From: Actinomycetota bacterium
GTDB taxonomy: Bacteria > Actinomycetota > Geothermincolia > Geothermincolales > RBG-13-55-18
NCBI GenBank assembly: GCA_014360655.1
Contig: JACIXC010000002.1
Span: 124,001-188,000 of the forward strand
Reading direction: 5' to 3'
Length of the DNA: 64,000 bases
Part shown: piece by piece, positions 20,568-60,778 of the stretch
How the letters are laid out: the number at the start of each line of letters is the position of its first letter
Numbering within the stretch: the stretch's first letter is position 1
The notes under the pieces: generated by a model
Databases searched by the model: none
What the model saw: the letters and a program-made list of their open reading frames with translations, nothing else
Told to the model about the DNA's origin: nothing
Translations under genes and position numbers: made by a program

Positions 20568-21398
20568 ATGGGGAGCATGTTGAATACGGCAGACTTTTAC
20601 AAAAGAGGGGCGAGGTTGGAAGACATAGCGGATGTAAGCGGACTCTGGAAGCAGTTCAAGGAAGAAGGTTCGCAGGAGGCCAGGGAAAAGCTCATCCTCA
20701 ACTACGCGCCCCTGGTGAAGTACGTGGCGGGCAGGGTTTCGTCCAGCCTTCCCCCCAACATCGAGTACGCGGACCTGGTAAGCTACGGCATCTTCGGCCT
20801 TATCGACGCCATAGAGAAGTACGAGCCGGAGAGGGGGATCAAGTTCGAGACCTACGCCCTGGCCAGGATCAAGGGGGCCATCATCGACGAGCTGCGCTCC
20901 ATCGACTGGGTGCCCCGCTCCATCCGCTTCAAGGCGAGGGAGATGGAGAAGGCCTACGTCACGCTGGAGAACGAGCTCAAGCGGCTTCCCACGGACGAGG
21001 AAGTGGCCCGCCACATGAACATCAGCCTGGACGAATACCACCAGCTGCTGCAGCAGATGAGTTTCATCTCCCTTGTGGCCCTGGACGAGCTGTGGAACGT
21101 TGGCGGCGACAAGGGGGACAAGGTAAGCCTGGTGGATACCCTGGAGGACTCGCGGGTCAAGGATCCCTCCAAGACCTACGAGGTGGAGGAGATGAAGCAG
21201 ATCCTGGCCAGCGCAATCAACCGCCTTCCCGAGCGGGAGAAGATCGTGATCAGCCTCTATTACTACGAGGGGCTGACGCTTCGGGAGATCGGGGAGGTCC
21301 TCGGCGTCACCGAATCCAGGGTCTGCCAGATGCACACCAAGGCCATCCTGCGACTGAGGGGGAGGCTGGCCAGCGCGAGAGGGGCTTTGGAGGTCTGA
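20568..21398 (+). CDS. whiG: FliA/WhiG-type RNA polymerase sigma factor
   Basis: A 276-residue sigma factor of the FliA/WhiG/SigD group. Region 2 shows NYAPLVKYVAGRV, EYADLVSYGIFGLIDAIEKY and FETYALARIKGAIIDELRS, with the group hallmark DWVPRSIR following. Region 3 has the LERLPTDEEVA-like KRLPTDEEVARHM. Region 4 has LPEREKIVISLYYYEGLTLR and an HTH LREIGEVLGVTESRVCQ. In Streptomyces, WhiG controls aerial hyphae sporulation and lies before rpsB, as here; elsewhere the group runs flagellar genes. No flagellar genes are in the window. Start at ATG 20568 or 20577. Confidence 0.92.
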   Translation: MGSMLNTADFYKRGARLEDIADVSGLWKQFKEEGSQEAREKLILNYAPLVKYVAGRVSSSLPPNIEYADLVSYGIFGLIDAIEKYEPERGIKFETYALARIKGAIIDELRSIDWVPRSIRFKAREMEKAYVTLENELKRLPTDEEVARHMNISLDEYHQLLQQMSFISLVALDELWNVGGDKGDKVSLVDTLEDSRVKDPSKTYEVEEMKQILASAINRLPEREKIVISLYYYEGLTLREIGEVLGVTESRVCQMHTKAILRLRGRLASARGALEV

Positions 21399-55655: not shown

Positions 55656-57425
55656 ATGGCAGACGGAGATTGGGAGAAGAGGACCCGTTGCTGCGGGGAG
55701 CTGAGGTCCGCGGACGCCGGCGCCGAGGTGGTCCTCAACGGGTGGGTGCACACGAGACGGGATCACGGGGGCGTCATCTTCATAGACCTGAGGGACATCT
55801 CCGGGCTGGTGCAGGTGGTGTTCAACCCGGAGGTCAGCTCCCGGGCGCACGCCGTAGCCCGCTCACTGCGCAGCGAGTACGTGATCTCCTGCGCGGGTAA
55901 AGTGAGGACCAGGCCGCCGGAGGCGGTGAACCCCAGGTTGGCCACCGGGGAGATCGAGGTCATGGCCGAGAGGGTGACGGTTCTGAGCGCCTCCCAGACC
56001 CCGCCCTTCGAGATAGAAGGAGGGGGGGAGGTGGATGAGACGCTGCGCCTCCGCTACCGCTACCTCGACCTGCGCCGCGGCGAGCAGCGTGACGCCCTCA
56101 TCCTGCGCAGCCGCGTGTGCAAGGCGGTGCGCGATTTCCTGGATGCCCGCGGTTTCCTCGAGATCGAGACGCCCATGCTCACCAAGAGTACCCCGGAAGG
56201 GGCGCGGGACTTCGTGGTGCCCTCCCGCCTGCAGCCCGGCAAGTTTTACGCCCTCCCGCAGTCGCCGCAGCTTTTCAAGCAACTCCTGATGGTAGCCGGC
56301 ATGGAGAGGTATTACCAGATCGCGCGCTGCTTCCGTGACGAGGACCTGCGGGCGGACCGCCAGCCGGAGTTCACCCAGATAGACCTGGAGATGTCCTTCG
56401 TTGAACCGGAGGACGTCATGGGCCTCATGGACGAGATGTTCGCATACCTCTTCGGCGAGCTGCTGGGGGAAGAACTGGCCACGCCGTTTCCCCGCCTTAC
56501 CTGGCACGAGGCCATGGAACGCTACGGGAGCGACCGGCCGGATGTCCGCTGGGGGATGGAGATAGGGGATTATTCCGCCATATACGCCGGTACTACCTGC
56601 AAGGTGTTCCGCGCCGCCCTGGAGGCGGGCGGGAGGATAAGGGGCTTCAAGGTCGCGGGCATGAGGAAACCCGCGCGACGCGAGCTGGACGGCCTGGTCG
56701 AGGAGGCGCAGCGACTGGGGGCGGGGGGCCTGGTTTGGATGGTGCGAGAGGGTGACGAGATAAGGTCGCCGGTTGCCAAGTTCCTCGACGGGCGCGAGGT
56801 CGCGGACACGCTGCGCGCCGCCGGGCTGCAGGAGGGAGAGGTGCTGGTGCTGGCGGCGGGAGGGGAGGAGACCAATGCGGTTCTCTCCGGAATACGCGAT
56901 CACTGCGCGCGCCTTTACCCGGTGACGCCGGAGCGGAGGTTCTCCTTCGTGTGGGTGACCCGTTTCCCGCTCTTCGAGTGGGACGAGGAGGAAAAGAGGT
57001 ACAAGAGCAACCACCATCCCTTCACCGCGCCGTCGCGGGAATGCCTGGATTTCCTTGAGGAGCGGCCCCTCGAGGCGACCTCCGACTCCTACGACCTGGT
57101 GCTCAACGGCGTGGAGCTGGGAGGCGGCAGCATCCGCATCCACCAGCCCGCCCTGCAGGAGCGCGTTTTCCGCATCCTGGGATTGCGCGACGAGGAGGTG
57201 CGAGAGAAGTTCTCCTTCCTCCTCGAGGCCTTCCGCTACGGGCCGCCGCCGCACGGCGGCATAGCCTTCGGTCTTGACCGCCTGGTCATGATAATGGCGG
57301 GGAGGGAATCCATCCGCGAGGTGATCGCCTTTCCCAAGACGCAATCGGGTGCGGACCCCTTGACCGGGGCTCCGGATGCCATCTATCCCGAGCAGCTCAA
57401 GGAGCTGCGCCTGCGCCAGCTGTAA
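55656..57425 (+). CDS. aspS: aspartyl-tRNA synthetase, bacterial type
   Basis: A 589-residue bacterial AspRS. N-terminal OB-fold anticodon domain (about 1-110) with GWVHTRRDHGGVIFIDLRD. Motif 2 is ARCFRDEDLRADRQPEFTQID, the GAD insertion domain covers about 290-430, and motif 3 is GIAFGLDRLVMIMAG. His37 in the RRDHG loop occupies the position that is His in non-discriminating AspRS and Leu in E. coli, so the enzyme may also charge tRNA-Asn. ATG 55656 is 5 bases after hisS. Confidence 0.96.
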   Translation: MADGDWEKRTRCCGELRSADAGAEVVLNGWVHTRRDHGGVIFIDLRDISGLVQVVFNPEVSSRAHAVARSLRSEYVISCAGKVRTRPPEAVNPRLATGEIEVMAERVTVLSASQTPPFEIEGGGEVDETLRLRYRYLDLRRGEQRDALILRSRVCKAVRDFLDARGFLEIETPMLTKSTPEGARDFVVPSRLQPGKFYALPQSPQLFKQLLMVAGMERYYQIARCFRDEDLRADRQPEFTQIDLEMSFVEPEDVMGLMDEMFAYLFGELLGEELATPFPRLTWHEAMERYGSDRPDVRWGMEIGDYSAIYAGTTCKVFRAALEAGGRIRGFKVAGMRKPARRELDGLVEEAQRLGAGGLVWMVREGDEIRSPVAKFLDGREVADTLRAAGLQEGEVLVLAAGGEETNAVLSGIRDHCARLYPVTPERRFSFVWVTRFPLFEWDEEEKRYKSNHHPFTAPSRECLDFLEERPLEATSDSYDLVLNGVELGGGSIRIHQPALQERVFRILGLRDEEVREKFSFLLEAFRYGPPPHGGIAFGLDRLVMIMAGRESIREVIAFPKTQSGADPLTGAPDAIYPEQLKELRLRQL

Positions 57426-57584: not shown

Positions 57585-58499
57585 ATGGAGATAAAGGTCG
57601 CCCGCTATGCCGGTTTCTGCCCCGGGGTCAGGCGCGCCCTGCGACTCGCGGAGGAGACCCTCGCCGGGGCGCGGGGGAAGGTGTTTTCGCTGGGGCCCAT
57701 CATACACAACCCGCACGTGGTGGGGGAGCTGCAGGAGAGGGGGCTGCAGATACTGCCGGAGGATGAGGAGGTGCTGCGCGGGCTGTCCCTGAGGGGCGCG
57801 CTGGTGGTGGTGAGGTCTCACGGCATACCGCCCGCGACCGCCGCCCTCCTGCGCGAAAAGGGCGCCGCGCTGGTGGATGCCACCTGCCCCACGGTGAAGA
57901 AGGCGCAGAGGGCGGCCATGCGCCTCGTGAAGGAGGGCTACCACCTCTTCATCGTGGGCGACGCCGCGCATCCAGAGGTGGCGGCCATCCTCGGCCACGT
58001 GGGCGGGAACGCCGAGGTCATCAAGGACACCCAGGAGCTGAAGGAATGGTGGAGCAAGCGCACGGAAAAGGTGAGGAAGGTGGGCCTTATCGCCCAGACC
58101 ACGGTGGACCTGCTCACGTTCCGCAGTCTCCTTGACGGCCTCATCAACGAGGTCCCCGAGGTGATGAGGGAGGTCGGCGAGATGAAGCTCATAAACACCC
58201 TCTGCCGCAACACGCTGGCCCGCCAGGCCGAGGCGCTGAAAGCGGCTTTCGATTCGGACCTCGTGGTGGTGGTGGGAGGAAAGGAAAGCTCGAACACCGA
58301 GTTCATGCGCAAGATCTGCGCAACCGCCGGCACCAGGACCATCAAGGTGGAGGCGGCGGGGGAGTTGACGGCCGATGTCCTGCAGGGAGCGAGAAAGGTA
58401 ACGGTGCTGGGAGGCGCCTCCACCCCGGGGAAAAGCGTGCAGGAAGTGCGCGACAGGCTGGAGGAGCTGAGCGTGGAGGCGGAGGCCGGGGATCCCTGA
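57585..58499 (+). CDS. ispH: 4-hydroxy-3-methylbut-2-enyl diphosphate reductase IspH
   Basis: A 304-residue iron-sulfur enzyme that makes IPP and DMAPP, the last MEP step. The three cluster Cys are Cys12 (GFCPGV), Cys101 (DATCPTVKK) and Cys207 (NTLCRNT). Substrate residues are in SLGPIIHNPHVV, RSHGIP and GGKESSNTEFM. ATG 57585 follows AGGAACGGGA. The 159-base gap after aspS shows no clear promoter. Confidence 0.96.
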   Translation: MEIKVARYAGFCPGVRRALRLAEETLAGARGKVFSLGPIIHNPHVVGELQERGLQILPEDEEVLRGLSLRGALVVVRSHGIPPATAALLREKGAALVDATCPTVKKAQRAAMRLVKEGYHLFIVGDAAHPEVAAILGHVGGNAEVIKDTQELKEWWSKRTEKVRKVGLIAQTTVDLLTFRSLLDGLINEVPEVMREVGEMKLINTLCRNTLARQAEALKAAFDSDLVVVVGGKESSNTEFMRKICATAGTRTIKVEAAGELTADVLQGARKVTVLGGASTPGKSVQEVRDRLEELSVEAEAGDP

Positions 58500-58704
58500 G
58501 GCGCACCGCCGCGCCCCGACACCGGCACCGTTCGTCTCACCGGCTGACCCCGCGTGTGCCGACGAAGGAAAACGCGCGGCCGCACGCAGGGAGGTGAGCG
58601 ATGCCGCATACGGATATCCCCTAATATTTATCATCGGTTACCTTACTTCCTCGGGATGGCGGTCGATAGAACGCCCCGCTCGAGCCGGCATTCGATGCGG
58701 GACT

Positions 58705-58752
58705 GCCCGCGCGGCCGAGCCGGCCGCGGGTCGCGGGAACGCGACCGGCGGG
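58705..58752. repeat. hairpin repeat, copy 1
   Basis: A 48-base unit with two adjacent stem-loops. The first is a GCGCGGCC/GGCCGCG palindrome. The second is GTCGCG, loop GGAA (a GNRA-type tetraloop), CGCGAC. It is almost identical to 58843-58890; the flanks are also similar, indicating a diverged 138-base tandem duplication. Confidence 0.8.
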
Positions 58753-58842
58753 TTGAGAAGAGACCATCATGGCGGAGGCCGCAATAGCGGATCTACGCTC
58801 CACGAAGCTGGAATCCACGGCTCCGGATCCGCCGTATGGGAT

Positions 58843-58890
58843 ACCCGCGCGGCCGGGCCGGCCGCGGGTCGCGGGAACGCGACCGGCGGG
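58843..58890. repeat. hairpin repeat, copy 2
   Basis: The second copy, differing from the first at only two positions (one in the loop of the first hairpin). The GTCGCG-GGAA-CGCGAC hairpin is unchanged. Confidence 0.8.
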
Positions 58891-59013
58891 ATGATAGAGT
58901 CCGTGCGTGCAGAAGCGGAGGATATCGGGAGAACGATGCCGTATCGTTTCGGCAGGCGCTTTCCAGATAAAAAGATCGGGAGGCCACCCTATCATCCTGG
59001 CAAGGCCAGTGGT

Positions 59014-59042
59014 TTGCGCTCCGCCATGCCGGAATATAAAAT
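59014..59042 (+). promoter_or_regulatory. promoter of the 6S RNA gene
   Basis: TTGCGC at 59014-59019 and TAAAAT at 59037-59042 are 17 bases apart. The expected start near 59050 coincides with the start of the long terminal stem of the RNA. Confidence 0.6.
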
Positions 59043-59049
59043 ATAGGTA

Positions 59050-59255
59050 GCGCGGTTTGCGGGCTCGACCTTGTACGTTGTGCGCCGTGGTTTATCGTTG
59101 AGCCAACACTTCGAAAAAGGGAACCGCTTTCCGCCGGCGGACGCAATGCCCCCAACCCGGGTGGGGGACTGCGGAGGCCTGCGGTAGGTGCCCACCTGCG
59201 TGGGTGCAGGTTCAAGATAGCGGCGTGGACGGCAGGGTGGAGTCCGATTATTTTG
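59050..59255 (+). ncRNA. ssrS: 6S RNA
   Basis: About 205 bases that fold as 6S RNA, the regulator that binds the RNA polymerase-sigma holoenzyme in stationary phase. GGGCTCGACC (59061-59070) pairs with GGTGGAGTCC (59236-59245) with one mismatch. CGCCG (59083-59087) pairs with CGGCG (59221-59225), TATC (59093-59096) with GATA (59216-59219), and TTGAGCC (59098-59104) with GGTTCAA (59209-59215). The E. coli 6S stem has the similar TGAGCC/GGTTCA pair. A purine-rich 5' bubble strand, a GC-rich apical arm with CCCCC/GGGGG, and a CCCAC/GTGGG hairpin on the 3' bubble side complete the shape. The stem ends in ATTATTTT. In Bacillus subtilis a 6S gene also lies in the hisS-aspS-rarA neighbourhood (from memory). 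Confidence 0.82.
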
Positions 59256-59443
59256 CTTGGACGGGGCGACGGGCCGTCTTCAACGAGCTACCGCTTGCCG
59301 TGCGTGACCGGGCAGCCTACTTGTCGGGGGCGCGCGGTATATTGTTCTCGGCGGTTTCCTGGCGAGGGTCGCCGTCGAGGCGGGGGTTACTTGCCGGGGA
59401 TTTCCGGCACAGGCCCCTGGCTCCGGAGAGAAAGGAGATCCCC

Positions 59444-60778
59444 TTGGATCTCTTCGAAAGCGCACGGGAGGAGATGCTCAGGAGAGAGGCGCCGCTGGCC
59501 CTGCGCATGCGCCCGCGCTCCCTCGAGGAGTTCGTGGGCCAGGAGGAACTGGTGGGCGAGGGCACCTACCTGCGCCGGGCCATAGAGGAAGACCGGCTGG
59601 CGACAGCGATCTTCTGGGGTCCACCCGGTTCGGGCAAGACCACGCTGGCGGCGATCATCGCCGCCATGACACGGGCTCATTTCCAGCAGATTTCCGCGGT
59701 GGCGAGCGGCGTTGCCGAGGTGCGCAGGCTCATCCAGGAGGCCGGGGACAGGCGGGCCATGCACGGGCAGCGCACCATCGTCTTCATCGACGAGATACAC
59801 AGGTTCAACAAGGCGCAGCAAGACGCCCTACTCCCGGCGGTGGAGGACGGGCGCATCGTCCTCATCGGCGCCACCACGGAGAACCCCTATTTCGAGGTGA
59901 ACCCGGCCCTCGTCTCACGCTCCAAGATATTCCGCCTCAAGCCCCTGAACGAGGATGAGGTGAGGACCATCGTGGAGAGGGCCCTCGCGGACGAGGAAAG
60001 GGGCCTGGCGCGGCTCGGCCTGGTGGTGGAGGAAGCAGCCCTGGATCACATCGTCCGCCTCTCGGGAGGGGATGCGAGGGTCGCCCTGAACACCCTGGAG
60101 GCGGCGGCACTGCTGGCGAAGGAGGAAGGCGGGGTGAGGCGCATCGACCTGCAGGCCGCGGAGGAGGCGGCACAACGCAAGGCGCTCCTCTACGACAAGT
60201 GGGGGGACGCGCATTACGACACCATATCCGCCTTCATCAAGTCCATGCGGGGCTCCGACCCACACGCCGCGGTCTACTGGCTGGCTCGCATGCTCTACGC
60301 CGGGGAGGACCCCAGGTTCATCGCGCGGCGCATGGTCATCTTCGCCTCGGAGGATATAGGCCTGGCGGACGCGAACGCCCTACAGGTGGCGGTGGCGGCG
60401 GCGCAAGCCGTGGATTTCGTGGGACTCCCCGAGTGCAGGCTGAACCTCGCGCATGCGGCCCTCTACCTTTCCCTCGCCCCTAAGAGCAATTCCGCCACAC
60501 GCGCCATAGCGGAGGCGGACAGGGAGGTGGCCGAGGGCCTGACTCCCCCCGTGCCGGCACACCTGAGGGACGCCCACTACCCCGCCGCCGCGGCGCTGGG
60601 CCACGGCAGGGACTACCTCTATCCCCATGCCTTTCCCGGTTCCTACGTCAGGCAGAGTTACCTTCCCCCCGAGCTTGAGGGCCGCGAGTTCTACCGGCCC
60701 GGGGAAAACGGGGAGGAGGCGGAACTGGCCGGGGAATGGAAACGCAGGACGGGGGAGGGGAGGGATGGAACGCGATGA
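59444..60778 (+). CDS. rarA: replication-associated recombination protein RarA (MgsA)
   Basis: A 444-residue AAA+ ATPase that works at stalled forks. It shows LRMRPRSLEEFVGQEELVG, Walker A GPPGSGKTTLAA (about 60-71), Walker B VFIDEIHRFNKAQQDALLP, GATTENPYFEVNPALVSRS, and the C-terminal part with KSMRGSDPHAAVYWLARML and YPHAFPGSYVRQSYLP. TTG 59444 was chosen: AAAGGAG lies 6 bases upstream and family similarity starts there. The frame remains open up to 59204, but that stretch overlaps the 6S RNA gene. Confidence 0.94.
   Translation: MDLFESAREEMLRREAPLALRMRPRSLEEFVGQEELVGEGTYLRRAIEEDRLATAIFWGPPGSGKTTLAAIIAAMTRAHFQQISAVASGVAEVRRLIQEAGDRRAMHGQRTIVFIDEIHRFNKAQQDALLPAVEDGRIVLIGATTENPYFEVNPALVSRSKIFRLKPLNEDEVRTIVERALADEERGLARLGLVVEEAALDHIVRLSGGDARVALNTLEAAALLAKEEGGVRRIDLQAAEEAAQRKALLYDKWGDAHYDTISAFIKSMRGSDPHAAVYWLARMLYAGEDPRFIARRMVIFASEDIGLADANALQVAVAAAQAVDFVGLPECRLNLAHAALYLSLAPKSNSATRAIAEADREVAEGLTPPVPAHLRDAHYPAAAALGHGRDYLYPHAFPGSYVRQSYLPPELEGREFYRPGENGEEAELAGEWKRRTGEGRDGTR

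Follow-up and report, generated by a model that had tools for sequence, protein, structure and literature searches.

Evidence for a single-copy 6S RNA gene upstream of rarA in an Actinomycetota bacterium

The aspS-rarA locus and its RNA gene

The window, i.e. the whole stretch of 64,000 nucleotides that was analysed, carries aspS, ispH, a probable 6S RNA gene and rarA, all on the + strand. 6S RNA is a small RNA by which the main RNA polymerase of the cell is sequestered. The upstream neighbour aspS (aspartyl-tRNA synthetase; 55656-57425; PF00152, 417 bits) is conserved upstream of the 6S gene, and ispH (LytB; 57585-58499; PF02401, 254 bits) lies between the two in part of the family. The probable transcript, of ~200 nt, spans 59050-59256 (+), its ends being placed by a -10 box and a T-rich tail, and is followed by rarA (MgsA AAA+ ATPase; 59444-60778; PF12002, 226 bits). 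The TTG start codon of rarA at 59444 is preceded by GAAAGGAGAT at 59430-59439; with this start in place the longer frame that begins at 59204 is not needed, and the RNA is therefore intergenic.

Between ispH and the RNA gene there are also two GC-rich direct repeats of 51 nt (58706-58756 and 58844-58894), which are 96% identical, lie 138 nt apart and each contain palindromic blocks. A 201-nt query over the repeats matched nowhere else in the genome. The 150-amino-acid reading frame with a GTG start that runs over them (58594-59043, +) has no Pfam match and is probably spurious.

An earlier note on this DNA had proposed a 6S RNA gene upstream of rarA, and had named a covariance-model search and covariation of the stems in relatives as its checks. 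RF00013 (Rfam 6S / SsrS) matches 59060-59247 (+) with 66.7 bits against a cut-off of 46.4 (E 5.5e-11); the match is full-length (model positions 1-187 of 187) and is the window's only Rfam match at gathering thresholds. The lineage models R1 and R2 both match the same core, which R1 scores at 216 bits, a value that is not independent because R1 was built from the window 6S and its relatives. Over the whole genome (3.0 Mb, 99.96% complete) the RF00013 search found a single 6S copy, and no 6C RNA was found there. With this match, and with stems that covary as described below, the proposal of the note is upheld: the region 59050-59256 very probably holds a canonical 6S RNA gene, present once in the genome, that adds a member to a known family. 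The note's further remark that the gene is invisible to annotation stands for protein-based annotation only, as any Rfam-based pipeline detects it; a search with the Rfam model is enough to show the gene to any user. As a gene of a known family it is ordinary in itself, and its interest is phylogenetic.

The gene order also agrees with the Bacillus-like synteny that had been pointed out for aspS and rarA. Across the phylum, 51 of 54 6S loci are preceded by aspS or ispH, or followed by rarA or alaS, in the orientation of the RNA, and in Alicyclobacillus pomorum (Bacillota; locus L115) the order aspS - 6S - rarA is found in the same orientation. rarA adjoins the 6S gene in lactic acid bacteria and in B. 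subtilis (PMC8414754). The neighbourhood of aspS and rarA is shared with Bacillota 6S genes (B. subtilis 6S-1, Alicyclobacillus, lactic acid bacteria; PMC8414754). The locus differs from these in that ispH is inserted after aspS, and from B. subtilis in that rarA there points the opposite way (PMC8414754).

Structure, promoter and predicted pRNA

We aligned 15 sequences from the window's order with MAFFT, without structural information (alignment A1), and obtained a consensus of 55 pairs. Double changes that keep the pair occur in 18 of the 55, compared with 6.0 +/- 1.5 when partners were shuffled and only 3-7 when partners were slid by 1-3 columns; 96.5% of the cells in this alignment can pair, compared with 33-46% after sliding. 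In alignment A3 (58 phylum sequences), which was built onto the model structure and is biased towards it, 45/55 pairs show double changes, 93% of cells pair and the covariation score is 0.487 (0.194 shuffled, at most 0.078 slid). Covariation in relatives thus bears out the proposed stems within the order as well as in the phylum.

The long imperfect terminal stem of the earlier note is recovered in two parts. The outer closing stem pairs 59061-59079 with 59228-59245, and 5 of its 16 pairs show double changes in the order; its 3' strand is part of the consensus structure, with covariation in both order and phylum. The inner closing stem pairs TATCGTTGAGCC (59093-59104) with GGTTCAAGATA (59209-59219), a 3' strand likewise in the consensus structure with covariation in the order, and includes both of the pairings that the note had singled out, TTGAGCC/GGTTCAA (59098-59104/59209-59215) and TATC/GATA (59093-59096/59216-59219). 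A central bubble, also predicted, follows, with AACACTTCGAAAAA (59105-59118) as its 5' strand, and the stem and arm that enclose it are supported by covariation. The apical arm (59119-59193; consensus structure, covariation) has GGG 59119-59121 paired with CCC 59191-59193 at its base. One element did not survive: the CCCAC/GTGGG hairpin on the 3' side is not conserved, as relatives carry GAGGG, AAGGG or GGGAG in place of GTGGG. The conserved hairpin in the 3' strand of the bubble (59195-59210), which shows covariation, is instead CCTGC/GCAGG (59195-59199/59206-59210).

The RNA was said to have a good promoter with 17-nt spacing and a U-rich end. The -10 box, TAAAAT (59037-59042, +), is well conserved: TAnnAT occurs at a similar distance upstream in all 17 copies from the order and TGnTAnnAT in 14 of them, against at most 5/17 and 2/17 in shuffled upstream regions. 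The window's genus, and the window with it, lacks the TG of the extended -10. A -35-like TTGCGC (59014-59019, +) does stand 17 nt from the -10, but it is poor, matching the consensus at three of six positions, and a consensus promoter scan reported no site; the case for the promoter therefore rests on conservation. The -10, its conservation and the spacing thus hold while the -35 does not, and on its sequence the promoter reads as -10-driven. We expect the transcript to begin near 59048-59051, a few bases ahead of the closing stem. The U-rich end is present as the T-rich TTATTTTGC (59248-59256, +), directly after the closing stem, which we take from the sequence to be the probable 3' end.

The bubble and the inner stem together hold the predicted pRNA template (59094-59107, +), which is nearly invariant, CCAACA (59103-59108) being present in 56 of the 58 phylum sequences. 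By homology, C59107 would be the first template base and synthesis would proceed from there to 59094, with 5'-GUUGGCUCAACGAU as its product. The predicted pRNA would begin 5'-GUUGGCUCAACG... and, started opposite C59107, would read 5'-GUUGGCUCAACGAUAAACC. The published hallmarks of pRNAs are GG at positions 4/5 or 5/6, AA at 9/10 and a conserved adenine adjoining the start (PMC8414754), and the predicted pRNA has all three: GG at 4/5, AA at 9/10 and A adjoining the start. The AA at 9/10 is shared with the pRNA consensus of lactic acid bacteria, whereas GG stands at 4/5 here and not at 5/6 as in the Bacillota 6S RNAs. The RNA resembles 6S RNA/SsrS (RF00013) in length, in its rod with a central bubble, in the layout of closing stem and apical arm, in the hairpin of the 3' bubble strand, in a predicted pRNA template with GG at 4/5 and in its putative upstream -10 promoter. 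There is no notable difference in structure; only the lineage differs, Actinomycetota being a phylum from which 6S is reportedly absent.

We infer transcription, holoenzyme binding, pRNA synthesis and an effect on growth or starvation from the 6S family. In the mechanism that we propose, transcription of the + strand from the -10-driven promoter would yield a rod-shaped RNA of ~200 nt with a central bubble, and this bubble would, by homology, mimic an open promoter and capture RNA polymerase with its primary sigma factor. The polymerase would later start on the 6S RNA opposite C59107 and make the short pRNA 5'-GUUGGCUCAACG..., which would refold the 6S RNA so that the enzyme is released. A search for sigma factor genes in the window's genome gave one RpoD-type gene over the cut-off (G000 C8:75182-75895). 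The window itself contains a sigma-70-family frame at 20757-21362 (+; G000:C2:144757-145362; 299 amino acids, RpoD_Cterm 89.8 bits, below the cut-off), which is probably an alternative sigma factor.

Alternative readings of the RNA

The RNA might be of the Ms1 type, a structural relative of 6S RNA in Actinomycetes that binds core RNA polymerase without sigma. The host belongs to Actinomycetota, for which Ms1 is accepted in place of 6S (PMC9130861), and Ms1 of Mycobacterium and Streptomyces shares with the window RNA the phylum, the class of abundant polymerase-binding RNAs and a central bubble. Because Ms1, although 6S-like, binds the core without sigma (PMC9130861), shape alone does not assure that the RNA described here would bind the holoenzyme. 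However, Ms1 is longer in mycobacteria (~300 nt) and has two extra short hairpins at its ends (PMC9130861), and these features are not found here, where the core is 188 nt and there is one long terminal stem. The ~190-200 nt of the RNA fit 6S (~180) better than mycobacterial Ms1 (PMC9130861), although length alone is a weak criterion, since Ms1 of S. coelicolor has ~230 nt. The window RNA also scores over the 6S cut-off (Ms1 was compared by its published description only), has a conserved pRNA template with the known hallmarks, and lies in the aspS-rarA neighbourhood of the Bacillota 6S genes. We consider an Ms1-type RNA very unlikely.

A structured leader or attenuator of rarA would put the same stem to a different use, as part of the rarA message and not as a free RNA. 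The stem does share its strand with rarA, whose start comes ~190 nt later; this same-strand position ahead of rarA was seen in 15/15 of the order members first tested, and a T-rich tail follows the stem. Against this, the downstream neighbour varies across several families of the phylum (alaS, others) while the RNA stays, the full 6S architecture is present, and the bubble contains a conserved template that has no role in attenuation; the leader is extremely improbable. Chance folding of GC-rich intergenic DNA has practically no likelihood: DNA as GC-rich as this region (65%) does fold readily, but the lone fold of the RNA reaches -99.8 kcal/mol compared with -79.5 +/- 4.4 for dinucleotide shuffles (z = -4.6; 0/200 as low), the RF00013 match has its E of 5.5e-11, the promoter is conserved, and the strong covariation by itself already refutes this reading.

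Distribution and descent in Actinomycetota

6S RNAs have been described as widespread except in Actinobacteria, where Ms1 is the RNA of the phylum (PMC9130861), and apart from one disputed candidate in Streptomyces no 6S RNA has been identified in actinobacteria (PMC11077062). The remark that 6S RNAs are little described in this lineage agrees with both papers, which give no accepted 6S in Actinobacteria. We found no paper that deals with 6S RNA in Thermoleophilia, Rubrobacter or Coriobacteria, and an earlier mention, e.g. in the main survey by Wehner et al. 2014, is possible.

A search with R1 found one 6S copy in 17 of the 18 genomes that represent the window's order; the one genome lacking a match is 62% complete. 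RF00013 detected 6S in 102 of 296 genomes across the phylum at E <= 0.001 (73 over the cut-off), and the phylum-wide model R2 in 73 of 197; these counts are lower bounds because the stricter filters of the phylum scans lose true copies, the RF00013 scan missing even that of the window. About a third of the sampled Actinomycetota genomes therefore carry 6S. Of the named genomes, 6S was found in a Thermoleophilia MAG and in several labelled Actinomycetota, MAG labels being no proof of class. No 6S was found in the Nonomuraea, Acidimicrobium and Ilumatobacteraceae genomes searched. At several loci R1 also gave antisense matches of 23-30 bits; these reflect the near-palindromic shape of the rod and were not counted.

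Sister families of the window's class gave a different result. RF00013, R1 and R2 found no 6S in 13 genomes from four of these families (f4-f7; G018-G030), seven of which are at least 90% complete, and a permissive Rfam search around aspS and rarA in the same genomes returned only chance-like matches below every cut-off. In none of these genomes do aspS and the best rarA match share a contig, not even in an assembly of ~10 contigs, so the old neighbourhood seems to be broken. The absence of 6S from the four families, together with the apparent unlinking of aspS and rarA, would mean that 6S was lost inside a single class of Actinomycetota.

That 6S holds this position in more than one phylum suggests, as judged from gene order, vertical inheritance of an arrangement that the ancestor already had. 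6S RNA thus occurs in Actinomycetota and probably goes back to their ancestor, and neither the best-studied classes nor the sister families in the window's class have it. We lean towards a fuller scenario in which the phylum started out with canonical 6S, and this and many other deep families still hold it at the old site between aspS and rarA. Actinomycetes, Acidimicrobiia and the sister families would have lost it together with the gene order, and Ms1 in Actinomycetes would either have replaced it afterwards or have evolved from it while its polymerase specificity shifted. Presence in deep-branching Actinomycetota runs against the published absence (PMC9130861, PMC11077062). A 6S RNA of this phylum at the Bacillota locus provides an outgroup for the origin of the core-binding Ms1, and the class that holds close relatives with and without 6S provides a natural contrast.

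Weak 6S matches of ~31-48 bits, mostly below the cut-off, were also obtained at loci L026 (G056) and L027 (G042) and in families f19, f26, f41 and f48, which have small complete genomes. These are possibly diverged 6S RNAs; at L026, rarA is found at the opposite flank of the match and on the opposite strand.
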